From: Luteolibacter sp. LG18
Lineage (GTDB): Bacteria > Verrucomicrobiota > Verrucomicrobiia > Verrucomicrobiales > Akkermansiaceae
Reading direction: 5' to 3'
NCBI RefSeq assembly: GCF_036322585.1
Contig: NZ_AP024600.1
Span: 4,278,001-4,342,000, forward strand
DNA length: 64,000 nucleotides
A program made the position numbers and the translations under genes. Position 1 is the stretch's first letter. Each line of letters begins with the position of its first letter. The notes beneath the pieces are model-generated. The model was not told where the DNA came from. It ran no database searches and was given only the letters and a program-made list of their open reading frames with translations. Positions 13,341 to 57,200 of the stretch are shown here, in pieces.

Positions 13341-14741
13341 ATGAATACCAAGCTCCGCTACCTGCTCGCTTTCCTATCCGGCGGAATCGCGGTCTTCGCG
13401 TTTCCGCCGTTTTCGTGGAAGGTGCTGGTGCTGGTGGTTTGGCCCCTGCTGTTCGTTGCGCTCCGAGGCGCGGGCTTCAAGACTGGCACGCGGCTGGGAG
13501 TGGTCCACGGACTGGTGCTTTACGCCATCGGCCTCTCGTGGTTCTGGCATATCTTTTCCGCCATCTCGATCGCCCTGTGGCTGATGCTCGCCTTGTTCAC
13601 GGGGTTGGCGGGCGGGTTGATCGGGTGGGTCAGCCTGCGCCACCGTGGTGCCCGGTGGTTGCCGCTCTACGCCGCGGCGGTGTGGACCGGCATCGAGTAT
13701 TTCCGCAGCGAGTGGTTCTACCTGCGCTTTCCATGGATGACTCCGGGCTTGGCGCTCGGTCCCTCGTGGCTTTCGCCGTGGATCGGCGTGTATGGCGCAG
13801 GCTTCGTCGTGGTGCTGGTGGCGGCGTGGTGGGCGTTGGGGAAGGCTCCGTGGCGGTGCCTGGGGTTCGCGGTGCTGGGGCTTCTCATGAGCCCGTTTCC
13901 GACCACTGTCTATGAGGCGGGGAAGGAGGTGCCGGTGCTCACCGTCCAGAACGAGAACAACGACTTCGTGTCCTATCACGATGCTTCCCGCACGTCCGGA
14001 TTCCAGGATGGCGTGATCCTGTGGCCGGAATACTCCACGCCTTACGAGGTCCGCCCGGAGCAGGCGGAATGGGCGAAGTTGAAGTCCCTCGCCGCCGATG
14101 CCCGTTCGGTGGTGGTCTTCGGCACGGTCAAGCCGCTGGCGGCTGCCAAGCATTACAACGTGGCCCGCACCATGGATGAGTCCGGCGAGCTCGGCTGGCA
14201 CGCCAAGAACCGGCCGGTGCACCTCATGGACGACGGCGAGCCGGGGAAAACCGCCGTGCCGGTGAAGACCCGCTTCGGCCATCTCGGGACTCCGATCTGT
14301 TTCGATTGCGACTACACCGAGGTGGTACGTCGAATGACGGTCGCAGGCGCGGAGGGTTTCGTGGTGCCCAGCATGGACGCCGCCTCTTGGTCGGCCCGCG
14401 AGCATCTCCAGCACGCGGAGTTGTTCCGCCACCGCGCTGCGGAAAACGCCCGCTGGTTCGCCATCGCCTCCACTTCCGGCATGACCCAGTTCATCGATCC
14501 CCGCGGCAGGCGGGTGAAGTCGCTGCCGCTGATGGAGCCGGGGATCCTGCGCGGGAGCATCTGGCTGCGCGATGACCGGACCTTTTTCAATCGCGCGGGC
14601 TGGGTGTTCCCGTGGATCGTCAGCGGAGCGGCGGTCATCGGGACGGCGGCACTCATCTTCATGGGGAGGAAGCGGAGAGTGGTTTCGTCAGTGGAGGTAT
14701 TCCCCCCTGATGCGGTTCTTGAAGGGGATGCCAAGCGGTAG
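13341..14741 (+). CDS. lnt: Apolipoprotein N-acyltransferase
   Basis: This 466-residue inner-membrane enzyme adds the third acyl chain to lipoproteins. About six N-terminal membrane helices (residues 1-190) include YAIGLSWFWHIFSAIS and VWTGIEYFRSEWFY. The periplasmic nitrilase-like domain follows: LWPEYSTPYEV carries the catalytic Glu, and GTPICFDCDYTEVVRRM the nucleophilic Cys. The catalytic Lys is not obvious from position alone. A last membrane helix lies near 430-450. Length is a little below the E. coli enzyme (512). Several lipoproteins are encoded in this window, so a substrate pool exists. Confidence 0.86.
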   Translation: MNTKLRYLLAFLSGGIAVFAFPPFSWKVLVLVVWPLLFVALRGAGFKTGTRLGVVHGLVLYAIGLSWFWHIFSAISIALWLMLALFTGLAGGLIGWVSLRHRGARWLPLYAAAVWTGIEYFRSEWFYLRFPWMTPGLALGPSWLSPWIGVYGAGFVVVLVAAWWALGKAPWRCLGFAVLGLLMSPFPTTVYEAGKEVPVLTVQNENNDFVSYHDASRTSGFQDGVILWPEYSTPYEVRPEQAEWAKLKSLAADARSVVVFGTVKPLAAAKHYNVARTMDESGELGWHAKNRPVHLMDDGEPGKTAVPVKTRFGHLGTPICFDCDYTEVVRRMTVAGAEGFVVPSMDAASWSAREHLQHAELFRHRAAENARWFAIASTSGMTQFIDPRGRRVKSLPLMEPGILRGSIWLRDDRTFFNRAGWVFPWIVSGAAVIGTAALIFMGRKRRVVSSVEVFPPDAVLEGDAKR

Positions 14742-14781
14742 TCCTCTCGCGTGGGAGATCGCAAGGGCCTTGCGGGCTCTG

Positions 14782-14977
14782 GATTTGGAGTGCGGCGAGC
14801 AATCGCCGTTTTGGGTGCAGGAGAGAATCGACGGGATTTGAAGCAGGCTGCCGGGCCGGGAATGAACCAGAGATGAGATGGTTCTGGAACGAGGGAGAGG
14901 GTTGGCGAACGCAGGTGTTGTACCCGGCGATGTCTCGCCTCCGCTCAAAGCGGCGATTGCTCGCCGCACTCCAAATC
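14782..14977. repeat. REP-like inverted pair (two 27-bp palindromic arms)
   Basis: A 27-bp segment at 14782-14808 recurs as its exact reverse complement at 14951-14977. Each arm itself folds (CGGCGA-GCAA-TCGCCG). The pair is 142 bp apart in the convergent spacer between lnt and the ABC exporter gene. This is the layout of REP doublets (BIME-like) that RAYT transposases mobilise. RAYT relics are present further on (34834 and 35737). The spacer between the arms holds no gene. Confidence 0.6.
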
Positions 14978-14980
14978 GGC

Positions 14981-16750
14981 TCACGCCAACTGCGTTTCCG
15001 CCAGCAGCTTGTAGGTGCCGCCGTGGGCGATCAACTCGTCGTGGGTGCCGCTTTCCACGATCTTGCCGTGGTTGACCACCAGAATGCGGTCGGCGTGGCG
15101 GACGGTGGAAAGGCGGTGGGCGATCACCAGGCTGGTGCGACCGGTCATCAGGCGCTCCAAGGCCTCGTTGACGAGGCGTTCGCTCTCGGCATCGAGGGCC
15201 GAGGTGGCTTCATCCAACAGTAGGATCTTCGGATCGGCGAGGATGGCACGGGCAATTGCGAGGCGCTGGCGCTGGCCGCCGGAGAGCTTGGTGCCGCGCG
15301 GGCCCACCAAAGTGTCGTAACCTTCCGGAAGGGCGGCGATGAAGTCGTGGGCGTTCGCTTGCTTGGCCGCGGCCTGGATCTGTTCCAGCGTCGCGCCCGG
15401 GCGGCCGTATTCGATGTTCTCGCGGATCGAGCCGCCGAACAGCAGCACTTCCTGCGGCACGATCGCCAGGTTCGAGCGCAGCGATTCCAGCGAGATCCCG
15501 GCGGCATCGCGGCCGTCGAACAGCACTTGGCCGGACTCCGGCTCGTTGAGACTCAGCAACAGTGAGAAGATGGTCGATTTGCCAGCTCCGGAGGGCCCTA
15601 CGAAGGCCACGCGCTGGCCCGGTTCCACCGAGAAGCTCAGATCGTTCAGCACCTGAACGTCCGGGCGGGATGGGTAGCGGTAGGCCACATGGTGGAAGGC
15701 CACCGCCCCCTCCATGCTGGCGGTGGTCTCGCCACCGGCACGTTCCGGCGGCGTGCCGGTGAGTTCGCGGAGGCGGTCGGTGGCACCGGCGGTGAGCTGG
15801 AGCTGGGAAATGATTTCCGGGAACGAACCCAGCGAGGCCCCCACGAAGACCGAGAACAGAATGAAGGCCGCGAACTCCTGCGAATTGATCTGGCCCTGCG
15901 CGAGCATCCGCGCGCCGAACCACGCGACGCCCGCGATGGTGCCGAACAGCACGAACACGATGAACGACAGGAACGCCGCGCGCACCTTGGCACCACGTAG
16001 CGTGACATCGAGGAAATGATCGAGCGCGCGATCGTAGCGACGGGATTCGAACTCCTCGTTGGTGAAGGCCTTCACGTCGGCGATGCCCTGCACCGTTTCC
16101 TCGATCACCGTGCCGGCCTCGGCCAGCGAGTCCTGGGCATCGCGGGAATACTTCCGTACCTTCCGCCCGAAGATGGCCACCGCCAGCACCACCACCGGCA
16201 CGCTGGCGAGCATCACCAGCGAGAGCTTCCACGAGGAGTAGAACACGACCACCAGGCCGCCGATGAGAATGACGCTCTGTCGGGCGAACTGGGGCACGGT
16301 GTTGAGGAGCGTGTCCCGCACCACGCCGAGGTCGGCGGAGACTCGGTTGCTCAGGGCACCTGCACGTTGCTCTTGGAAGTAGGAAAGGGGAAGGCGCACC
16401 AGATGGCGGAAGATGTCGCGGCGCAGGTCATTGAGCGCGGATTCACCGGAGCGGATGAACCCCTGCACACGGAAGAATCCGATGAAGGCTTGGAGCGCCA
16501 GCGCGGCGATCAGCCATTTCAGCGTGTGGTTGATCTTGTCGACGATGGTCGTGGGATCGACGCCTTGGCGCAGCGCGTCCACGGGATTGCCGATCAGGTC
16601 TTTCAGGAACCAGGGAAAGGCCAGCGAAAGCGCGGCGGTGACCAGCAGCGCCACCACGGAGGGCAGGAACACCGCCTTGTGACGCATCAGATAGCCGGAG
16701 ATCCAGCGGAACGAGGAGGAAAGGGAAGACCCGGAGCGCGGCTTCGGCAT
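14981..16750 (-). CDS. ABC exporter, MsbA-like (fused membrane and ATPase domains)
   Basis: This 589-residue half-transporter has six membrane helices (about 20-320) followed by an ATPase domain (about 345-585). Motifs are complete: Walker A GPSGAGKST, Q-loop VPQEVLLFGG, signature LSGGQRQR, Walker B ILLLDEATSALD and H-loop VIAHRLSTV. It works as a dimer in the inner membrane. The LSYFQEQRAGALSNRVSAD segment matches the MsbA/lipid and multidrug exporter group. Substrate (lipid A, other lipid or drug) cannot be set from sequence. It is convergent with lnt across the REP-like pair and divergent from the PEP-CTERM protease. Confidence 0.9.
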   Translation of the reverse strand: MPKPRSGSSLSSSFRWISGYLMRHKAVFLPSVVALLVTAALSLAFPWFLKDLIGNPVDALRQGVDPTTIVDKINHTLKWLIAALALQAFIGFFRVQGFIRSGESALNDLRRDIFRHLVRLPLSYFQEQRAGALSNRVSADLGVVRDTLLNTVPQFARQSVILIGGLVVVFYSSWKLSLVMLASVPVVVLAVAIFGRKVRKYSRDAQDSLAEAGTVIEETVQGIADVKAFTNEEFESRRYDRALDHFLDVTLRGAKVRAAFLSFIVFVLFGTIAGVAWFGARMLAQGQINSQEFAAFILFSVFVGASLGSFPEIISQLQLTAGATDRLRELTGTPPERAGGETTASMEGAVAFHHVAYRYPSRPDVQVLNDLSFSVEPGQRVAFVGPSGAGKSTIFSLLLSLNEPESGQVLFDGRDAAGISLESLRSNLAIVPQEVLLFGGSIRENIEYGRPGATLEQIQAAAKQANAHDFIAALPEGYDTLVGPRGTKLSGGQRQRLAIARAILADPKILLLDEATSALDAESERLVNEALERLMTGRTSLVIAHRLSTVRHADRILVVNHGKIVESGTHDELIAHGGTYKLLAETQLA

Positions 16751-54249: not shown

Positions 54250-57200
54250 TCATTTCGGCGAAATGACCCTACCTTCGCGCTTGAGATGCCGCCCGTGCAA
54301 CCAGAGGAAGATCACGGGCGTCACGATGAGGATGTGGAGGAGGCTGGAGATCATGCCGCCGATGACCGGGGTGGCGAGAGGCTGCATGATTTCCGTGCCC
54401 TGGCGGTGGCTCCACATGATCGGCAGCAGGCTGGCGACGATGGTGGCCACGGTCATCACCTTCGGGCGGAGCCGGAGCCGCGCACCGTCGATCACGGCCT
54501 GGACCAGATCGGCGTGGGTGAAGGCGTCGCCGAGTTCGGCCATCCGCTTCCGCACCGCTTCCTCCAGATAGACCACCATCACGACGCCGGTTTGCACGGC
54601 GGTGCCGAAGAGGGCGATATAGCCAACCCACACCGCGCCGTTGAAATTGTATCCCAGCAGCTTCTGCAGGAACACGCCGCCGCTCAGGGCGAAGGGCACG
54701 GCAAGCATCACGTGGGCGGCCTCGGCGAAGCTGCGGTAGACGATGAAGAGCAGGATGAAGATCACGCCCAGCACGGCGGGCACCACGAGCAACATGGTGT
54801 CGGCGAAGCGTCGCTGGTTCTCGTATTCACCGGTGAGGGCGGGGATCATGCCTTCCCACTCGACCTGCTTCAGCCGCTGCTCCACTTCCGCGACGAAACC
54901 GCCGAGGTCGCGGCCCTCGACGTTCGCCTGGACGTAGGAACGTAGCTTGCCGTTCTCGCTGGCGATCTCATTCGCTCCGGTCTCGCGGGTGATCCTCGCA
55001 ACCATGGCGAGCGGGATGGTGCCGGTGGCGGGAGCTTCGGGTGCCGGGGCGGTCGCTGCGGGAGCGGTGGTGCCTCCCATGGATGACATGCCGCCGCCAC
55101 CGGAGGCTGCCGGGGCAGGGGCGGCATTCATGCCCGCGGGCAGGGCGACGGGGATGCGGCCGACTTTTTCGATGTCATCGCGCTCGCCGCGCTCCAACCG
55201 GACCTGCACGGGATAGCGTTCGCGGCCTTCGATGGTGACGGTGACGTTCTTGCCGCCGAGCCCGACTTCCACGGCATCGAGCACGTCCTTCGCGCTGAGC
55301 CCGTAGCGGGCCATCGCGCGGCGATCGACCTCGATGTTGAGGTAGGGCTTGCCCTGCACGCGGGACGGCGAGACGCCGGTCGCGCCGGGGATCTCGCGGA
55401 TGATCTTCTCGACCTCGAAGGCCTTGCGCTGCACCGCCGAAAGGTCGTCGCCGAGGATCTTCACGCCGACCTGGGCGCGGATGCCGGTGTAGAGCATCAG
55501 GATGCGGTTCTCGATTGGCTGGAGAAACGCGGGCACGTAGCCGGGCACCTGTTTCATCGCCTCGGTGAGCTCGGCCTTGAGTTTGGCCACGGTCATGCCC
55601 TCGCGCCACGCCGGATTGCGCTTCACGCCCCATCGCCCGTCCGGGATGTATTCGGGTTTCAGCGTGATGGTGGTTTCCAGCATCTCGATGGGCGCGGGAT
55701 CGGTGGCGGTTTCGAAGCGGCCCATCTTGCCCGCGACGGTTTCAATCTCGGGCACGGAGGCGAGCACCTTGTCCTGCCACGCCATCACGCGCTGGATCTC
55801 GGTGGCACCGGTCTTCGGCAGCAGCACCGGCATGTAGAGAAGGCTGCCTTCATTGAGCGGCGGCATGAACTCGCGACCGAAGCCCGAGAACCATCCGGCC
55901 ACCCGCGGATAGCCGCGGTCGTCGAGCGACTTCAGCCACGGGCGCGGCAAACCGAAGGCGGTGAGGATCGCCGCGGCGAGCAGCAGGAAGGCTCCGGTGA
56001 TCACGGTGCGGCGGTGGTTCAAGGCCCAGCGCAACGCGGGATCGTAGAGGGCGAGCAGGAACCGCATCAGCAGGTTCCGGTCCTCGCCGTGGAAGGGCCC
56101 GCGCACGAAGATGCTGCACAGCACCGGCACGAGTGTGACGGCGAGCAGCGTGGAGCCGATCATCGCGAAGGTTTTCGTCCAGGCGAGCGGGTGGAACAGT
56201 TTGCCCTCCTGGCCCGCGAGCGCGAAGACCGGCACGAAGGCGAGGATGATGATCGCCATCGCGAAGAAGATCGGTCGACCGACCTGGTGGCAGGCATCGA
56301 GCGTGACCTGCCAGCGTTCACCGGCATCGAGCGGCGAGCCTTTTTCCCGCTCCGCGATCTCGGCGTGGCGCAGAACGTTCTCCGTGACCACGATGGCGGC
56401 ATCCACCAGCACGCCGATGGCGATGGCGATGCCGGTGAGCGACATGATGTTGCTGGTGATGCCGGTCTCCTTCATCAGCAGGAAGGAAACGAGGATCGAA
56501 ACCGGCAGTGGCAGGGTGACGATGAGGATGCTGCGGAAGTGCCAGAGGAAGATGATGTGGGCCAGGGTGACGAGGATGATCTCCTCGATGAGCGCGTGCT
56601 TGAGCGTGTCGATGGTGCGGTCGATCAACGTGCTGCGGTCATAGAACGGCTTGATGGTGACGCCGGGGGGCAGGGTCTTCTGGAGGTCGGCGACCTTGTC
56701 TTTCACGCGGGCGATCACATCGCGGGCGTTCTCGCCGGTGCGCATGACCACGGTGCCGCCGACGGATTCGTGGCCGGCGATGTCGAGCGCGCCGCGGCGG
56801 AAATCGCCGCCGGTCTGGATGGAGGCGAGGTCCTTCAGGTAGACGGGCGTGCCCTTCTCCTGCTTCACGGCGATGAGGCCGATGTCCTCGGTGTTCCGCA
56901 GCAGGCCCACGCCGCGCAGCACGAACTCCGCGCCGTTTTCCTCCATCACCTTGCCGCCCACGTTCAGGTTCGCGTTTTGGACGGCCATCATCACGTCATT
57001 GAGGGCCACTCCGGCGGAGCGCATGCGGGCGGGGGAAAGCTCGATCTGGTACTGCTTCACGTAGCCGCCGATGGAGGCCACCTCCGCGACGCCCTGCACG
57101 GACGCGAGCTGGTAGCGGATCCGCCAGTCCTGAAGCGAACGCAGTTCCGCGAGATCGTAGCCGCCGGACGGGGCCTTGGAGGCATCGACATCGAGGTAGT

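Follow-up and report, generated by a model that had tools for sequence, protein, structure and literature searches.

A head-to-head hairpin doublet between lnt and an ABC transporter gene, probably a relict REPIN of a phylum-wide GGAGT-tagged family with its own RAYT subfamily

Two self-folding arms face each other in the gap between two convergent genes of the window (the whole 64-kb stretch of DNA analysed here), and the locus raises the question of what kind of repeat the pair is, what would have moved it and whether it can still move. An earlier note described exact 27-bp reverse-complement arms 142 bp apart in a convergent spacer, with CGGCGA-GCAA-TCGCCG as a palindrome inside both. Coordinates and letters were confirmed, with 142 nt between the arms, lnt ending at 14741 on the plus strand and the ABC transporter gene ending at 14981 on the minus strand, its stop 3 nt from the right arm. 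The features of the locus are as follows.

13341..14741, plus strand: lnt (apolipoprotein N-acyltransferase), convergent left neighbour (Pfam LNT_N 1.6e-21, CN_hydrolase 7.3e-15)
14782..14977, plus strand: whole REP doublet, REPIN-like, ~196 bp, 1 of 32 genomic places (BLASTN in own genome and alignment)
14782..14808, plus strand: left arm, exact 27-mer, tag TTTGGAGT (14784-14791) and then hairpin (sequence)
14792..14809, plus strand: left hairpin GCGGCGA-GCAA-TCGCCGT, outermost pair G-T (sequence)
14809..14835, plus strand: inner part of left arm, related to the right arm's inner part (45-nt 89% inverted repeat)
14836..14923, plus strand: spacer, variable yet recognisable among copies, mean pairwise identity 0.63 (copy comparison)
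14950..14967, minus strand: right hairpin GCGGCGA-GCAA-TCGCCGC, stem 7 bp, 4-nt loop (sequence)
14951..14977, minus strand: right arm, exact reverse complement of the left arm (sequence)
14981..16750, minus strand: ABC transporter gene, convergent right neighbour (Pfam ABC_membrane 3.4e-60, ABC_tran 5.8e-35)

A T at 14809 in the left arm leaves its stem one Watson-Crick pair shorter than that of the right arm. Inverted similarity extended past the 27 bp to 45 nt at 89% identity (14782-14826 and 14933-14977). Folding of the doublet strand gave a z score of -9.6 as DNA and -10.2 as RNA, and none of 200 shuffles equalled either value; together with the copy number given below these statistics ruled out a chance palindrome. 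Within the 64-kb window the arm was present as this pair only, with an extra 2-mismatch match to the tag half at 55182. A search of 14600-15100 against Rfam returned no match up to E 1, ruling out a known RNA family, and a terminator was rejected as a scan of 14700-15020 found 0 sites, with 0.4 expected in shuffles. The closest relative found for lnt was 62% identical and came from a Verrucomicrobiaceae MAG (L222), and more distant relatives were found in Haloferula rosea (42%), a Sumerlaeota MAG (41%) and another bacterium (41%). These relatives make Verrucomicrobiota the probable phylum.

The 196 nt were used as a BLASTN query against the own genome (G000, one contig of 5.80 Mb). The search returned 85 matches that resolved to 32 places with each element counted once, 27 of them covering 175 nt or more of the query and five being partial; an additional half arm (L084) was found via the outer repeat described below. 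The arm with up to 1 mismatch was present 53 times in the own genome. A scan of the 32 element loci placed the exact 27-mer at four sites (both window arms, C1:2980381 and C1:3618183), and the refuting case named in the earlier note, a 27-mer confined to this locus, therefore does not apply. Genes around the copies were called with a crude codon-score gene finder, by which 29 of 31 copies were intergenic (15 codirectional, 9 convergent and 5 divergent) and 2 lay within called ORFs. The arm is thus a short palindromic hairpin of high copy number that is mostly intergenic, as REPs are, and the dispersed copies are inverted doublets with outward-facing tagged hairpins and a common spacer, as in REPINs, which bears out the REP/BIME-like doublet proposed in the earlier note.

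Conservation within the element was compared in 23 of 30 fetched loci, 7 being omitted as nested, partial or deleted. Mean pairwise identity was 0.93 and 0.91 for the outer arms, 0.89 (14812-14835, left) and 0.91 for the inner arm parts, and 0.63 for the 88-nt spacer. The closest two of the 23 copies were 93.1% identical and there was therefore no sign of recent copying. The loop of the arm hairpin in own-genome copies was mostly GNNA with two variable bases, and the left and right loops of one copy were alike in 12 of 24 copies compared with 5.6 by shuffling (p about 0.001). This agreement may reflect arm-to-arm copying (gene conversion) or subfamilies.

Arms of 0.91-0.93 mean pairwise identity around a spacer of 0.63 could also mean that the arms are kept by selection as host RNA or DNA signals, such as a bidirectional terminator, a 3'-end stabiliser or a protein-binding site, their mobility being over. 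The convergent placement in the window with the right arm 3 nt from the ABC stop, the very stable fold and the loop agreement all fit such a signal. However, nine convergent copies stand beside 15 codirectional, 5 divergent and 2 in ORFs, so that the copies are not confined to the 3' side of genes. The terminator scan came back with 0 sites even though TTTT directly follows the left hairpin on its 3' side, no Rfam family matched and the loop agreement fits subfamilies or gene conversion just as well. We consider retention as a host signal possible but rather doubtful, and it is compatible with the reading of the pair as a REP doublet that is taken further below.

Some copies were nested in other repeats. 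Of 30 copies scanned, five (L002, L004, L005, L025 and L029) had an outer repeat of ~19 nt, TAGG[TC]TGAATCGACATTCA, beside TA (or CTAG). It flanked the core at a distance of about 40-60 nt, on a single side or on both, and was present at the partial copy L084 as well. Such ends would suit a MITE, that is, a core carried by a non-autonomous element with TAGG[TC]TGAATCGACATTCA ends that is moved by a DDE transposase with the hairpins as passengers, and the same outer repeat indeed bordered an unrelated hairpin family (GCCCCAACGGGGC...) in L079, L088, L089 and L106. However, terminal inverted repeats at the copy ends are what defines a MITE, and 25 of the 30 copies, the window copy included, lacked the outer repeat at up to 4 mismatches. 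The outer repeat was also nearly limited to the own genome, with 10 matches there and 1 in 98 relatives, whereas the arm box is phylum-wide, and no autonomous transposon with such ends was noticed at the nine outer-repeat sites read. Carriage as a MITE is therefore quite unlikely.

Other nests had different ends. L005 and L014 have the same GTAG-type REP, in inverted orientation, on their two sides; L008 lies between two different REPs. Three copies had a 455-524 bp element at the apex of the arm hairpin, with CCTGCCCTTTACCCACATC as its inverted ends and a GTAG-type hairpin inside, and two more showed a single junction of it:

L009 ~1018-1501: CCTGCCCTTTACCCACATC-ended element
L019 ~963-1506: CCTGCCCTTTACCCACATC-ended element
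L020 ~1027-1501: CCTGCCCTTTACCCACATC-ended element
L084 and L030: one junction of the CCTGCCCTTTACCCACATC-ended element in each

An apparent 6-bp duplication, AGGCAT or AGACAT, accompanied this element in L009 and L020. Its three host copies differ in loop sequence, the insertion appearing as if aimed at the apex. In L005 the core was apparently inverted relative to its type of outer flank when compared with L002 and L004, as is expected from recombination between inverted arms. The nests point to no single mover and their constant part is the ends of the core. Since some copies lie inside repeats with different ends, part of the spread may be hitch-hiking.

Among 59 genomes (the own genome and 58 relatives) the exact G000 arm was found in the own genome with one other match. 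A species-restricted repeat was nevertheless refuted once the inner stem was freed for a wider search (TNTGGAGTGCGG...CCGCTTT), which uncovered a phylum-wide family. The free-stem pattern was detected in 25 of 99 genomes of the order, where the reversed control gave one match, and in 59 of the 288 genomes searched across the phylum (own included) representing 41 of 151 genera, where the reversed control gave none. A tag T[N]TGGAGT adjoins a GC...GC hairpin with a TTT tail, and the tag is unpaired and 5' of each hairpin. Pairing of the stem was assessed in a less circular way with arms selected solely from the flanking sequence (box, GC, 14 free bases, GC, tail), giving a sample of 34 distinct stems from 31 genomes with five inner pairs each. 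The inner pairs were paired in 88.8% of cases (G-T counted) compared with 56.4% in 1000 shuffles, the maximum of which was 65.3%, and the fifth stem pair varied between CG, TA, AT and GC. The hairpin is thus kept by compensatory change between hosts, as in REPs. Arms were also seen in regular arrays, 97-194 bp apart in G221:C91:23-825 (L236) and about 140 bp apart in G076:C76:12654-12974 (L212), and both arrays resemble a REP doublet amplified in tandem.

Linkage to a RAYT gene was evaluated in these relatives. None of 30 PF01797 loci fetched from twelve arm-bearing relatives carried an arm, which first suggested no RAYT link at all. This was wrong, PF01797 being weak on the linked RAYT group: it missed the group in G037 and G096 and scored only 26-32 bits in four genomes against a cut-off of 23. 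Over the PF01797-search loci an arm-like match within 600 bp was found in 2 of 54, one of which (L251) was chance-like. In a second set of twelve relatives a weak PF01797 match in G101 was flanked by arms on both sides, and arms lay alongside all 9 members of a group made up of the G101 protein and its relatives from eight other genomes, one from each. NCBIfam NF047646 (REP_Tyr_transpos) matched 9 of 9 of these arm-linked proteins at E<=0.01, member 1 scoring 78.9 bits, just below the cut-off of 80, and Pfam Y1_Tnp matched 8 of 9 at E<=0.01 with a best value of 1.9e-7. The protein profile built from an alignment of the arm-linked RAYT proteins (A1) matched E. coli TnpArep 4er8 with E 1.3e-8. 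Residues H67, Y68, H69, Y128 and N132 were invariant in the alignment, in the arrangement NHYH ... Y[VI][HM]xN[PA], with NA replacing NP in 2 of the 9 proteins. With the HUH motif, the Y---NP motif and the match to the RAYT model, the linked protein has what marks a RAYT (TnpA-REP).

At E 1e-10 the A1 profile matched 98 of 288 genomes. A cut at 161 bits, chosen after seeing the list, defined the close RAYT group: 36 genomes reach it and the next one scores 125. In 30 loci with the best A1 matches an arm (up to 2 mismatches in the box) lay within 300 bp of the RAYT gene in 25 and on both sides in 20, with 85 arms in 17.7 kb near the RAYT and 9 in 65.9 kb far from it. Strict arms (exact TGGAGTGC and a perfect stem) gave 20 of 30 loci, 18 with arms on both sides, and 63 arms near versus 4 far. 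Five of the 30 loci (in G101, G127, G308, G278 and G299) overlap profile seeds that had been found via arms; without them an arm was present at 20 of 25 loci and on both sides at 16 of 25. Five loci were armless (L300, L310, L313, L318 and L319), or 10 of 30 under the strict definition. At the level of the family, then, the RAYT is flanked in relatives by the same REPs.

Co-occurrence across the phylum was in line with this linkage. The arm pattern was present in 27 of 36 genomes with the RAYT versus 32 of 252 without it, giving an odds ratio of 20.6 and p 2e-14, a value that overstates the co-occurrence because the genomes are related. Among the 36 genomes with at least four arms, 20 had the RAYT and 16 had no close RAYT, so that the link is not obligatory, or assemblies have gaps, or a more distant RAYT is involved; several of the 16 gave weaker A1 matches (for example G284 at 6.5e-36 and G218 at 5.7e-28). 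The exact arm pattern was absent from 9 of the 36 RAYT genomes, some of which showed looser arms at the RAYT (L303, L312 and L314). One of the nine, G061, is of the same genus, and three others of that genus (G344, G023 and G073) had both the RAYT and arms.

The own genome gave a different result. PF01797 returned 17 matches there, 16 above the cut-off, and 0 of 17 loci had a GGAGTGCGG arm within 1.5 kb. Sixteen of these loci were examined for other hairpins. Four genes were flanked on each side by a hairpin of the same type, GTAG-tagged and with slightly different loops (L060, L070, L072 and L073), and in four more a tagged hairpin stood on a single side (L064, L071, L074 and L075), the tag in L074 being GGAG on an unrelated stem. 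As these other tagged hairpins were detected at the own Y1 loci, the search was able to see linkage. The own genome thus holds several other RAYT genes beside tagged hairpins with different stems. At E 1e-10 the A1 profile matched nothing in the own genome. Loose thresholds gave matches of 41 (L320, E 5e-10), 28.6 and 25.4 bits, compared with at least 161 in the close RAYT group, and no arm lay within 1.5 kb of these three best loci (L320-L322). One of them, L322, is a RAYT-like ORF of 169 aa (G000:C1:5452483-5452881) that does not appear in the PF01797 list.

RAYT linkage, which the earlier note had proposed as a check, was therefore found in the relatives (25 of 30 loci, 20 under the strict definition) and not in the own genome, where neither the 17 PF01797 loci nor L320-L322 placed a cognate RAYT beside the arms. 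The cognate RAYT has probably been lost from the own genome, because congeners have it; alternatively it may have diverged beyond recognition. Hosts that have lost the REPtron are described in PMC3733652, so that the missing RAYT lowers the case for present mobility and not the case for a REP. Continued mobilisation of the arms in trans by another or more distant RAYT of the own genome, for which 17 PF01797 matches and three weak A1 matches (best 41 bits) supply candidates, is improbable, as the hairpins at the own Y1 loci have other stems, no arm lies within 1.5 kb of any of these genes and no pair of the 23 copies exceeds 93.1% identity.

Taken together, the window pair is best read as a head-head REPIN of a phylum-wide family with its own RAYT subfamily, a relict here as its RAYT was lost or diverged, and we put the probability of this reading at about 0.8. 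The repeat family, the doublet structure, the covarying stems and the RAYT linkage and co-occurrence in relatives were observed directly. From these we infer cleavage and transfer, and the same past spread of the own-genome copies before loss of the cognate RAYT. By analogy with TnpA-REP, each arm would fold while in single-stranded form, as at the replication fork, and the RAYT, a Y1/HUH single-strand DNA transposase, would read the GGAGT tag and hairpin, cut beside the tagged hairpin and move the doublet to new sites. Many copies are immediately bordered by CTCTGAT, and a putative CT cut site may lie in it, though this is a guess. The window copy would now be a relict that is harmless or that forms a 3'-end hairpin between the two convergent genes, a possible role. 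Of the earlier description as a classic mobilisable REP doublet, the REP doublet stands and "classic" does not, as the tag is GGAGT and not GT[AG]G; "mobilisable" would follow from the RAYT linkage in relatives and is probably no longer true in the own genome.

A wider proposal, to which we give even odds, is that the GGAGT arms form a distinct REP superfamily that goes back as far as much of Verrucomicrobiota, with their own RAYT subfamily using a guide other than GT[AG]G, an inner stem co-evolving with the RAYT, a population outliving the enzyme and near-invariant arms kept by host selection or arm-to-arm copying. The natural enzyme-hairpin pairs across the phylum provide a way to test how the tag guides cleavage, and the genomes with and without the enzyme a way to test how REPs persist after RAYT loss. 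In the literature found, REP recognition has been worked out on GTAG-type enzymes.

The family was compared with known systems, using the available parts of the papers cited. Like gammaproteobacterial REPINs and BIMEs with their RAYT (TnpA-REP), it has tagged short hairpins, inverted doublets and high copy number (PMC3116915, PMC2817692, PMC8266576). It also has, as they do, a RAYT with its own REPs on both sides and stems that vary by compensatory change between hosts; RAYT genes flanked by inverted REPs are described in PMC2817692. Unlike them, it has GGAGT as its tag, with a single base between GGAG and the stem, and not GT[AG]G, it belongs to another phylum, the own genome has no close cognate RAYT and Pfam Y1_Tnp catches the linked RAYT group weakly. 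According to the accessible text of PMC8266576, TnpA-REP cuts single-stranded REPs at CT or CA sites, and the tag guides the cut in at least one system. The family resembles MITEs in the ~19-nt outer repeat that five of the 30 copies carry beside TA, and differs from them in that the other 25 copies have no such ends and that the conserved ends of the core are tagged hairpins.

Di Nocera et al. 2013 (PMC3733652, seen in part) distinguish GTAG and CGTC REP superfamilies whose families differ by stem and loop, and describe HH dimers (tags outside) with conserved spacers, Opitutus terrae (Verrucomicrobia) as rich in GTAG repeats, CGTC repeats without a linked transposase and REPtrons lost by deletion in some hosts. 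The HH dimers, the conserved spacer and REPtron loss, as we propose for the own genome, are features in common with these superfamilies. Members of the GTAG superfamily have an unpaired GT[AG]G 0-2 nt 5' of the hairpin, whereas here and in relatives GGAG stands one nt 5' of the stem, and the unpaired CGTC that the CGTC superfamily has at one end was found neither here nor in the relatives' arms. A word-start search for GGAG in the portion of the PMC3733652 text available gave 0 hits.

The classes of TnpA-Y1 proteins set out in PMC6006769, as far as its accessible text goes, include subclass 2.6 and class 3, two groups whose flanking structures lack GT[AG]G. Subclass 2.6 has Y---NP, as does the whole of class 2, and occurs mostly in Bacteroidetes; class 3 has Y----Q and occurs mostly in Planctomycetes, Acidobacteria and Proteobacteria. 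The linked RAYT group, set beside them by motif and description, shares the HUH motif with both; "Verrucomicrob" has 0 occurrences in the main text of that paper as available. A literature search that covered few subscription papers found no description of a GGAGT tag or of the linked RAYT group, and a search for the arm letters found no paper. By its sequence features, the system would thus be of a known kind, tagged REP doublets with a RAYT, with the GGAGT tag and its RAYT group appearing to be a new variant of it.
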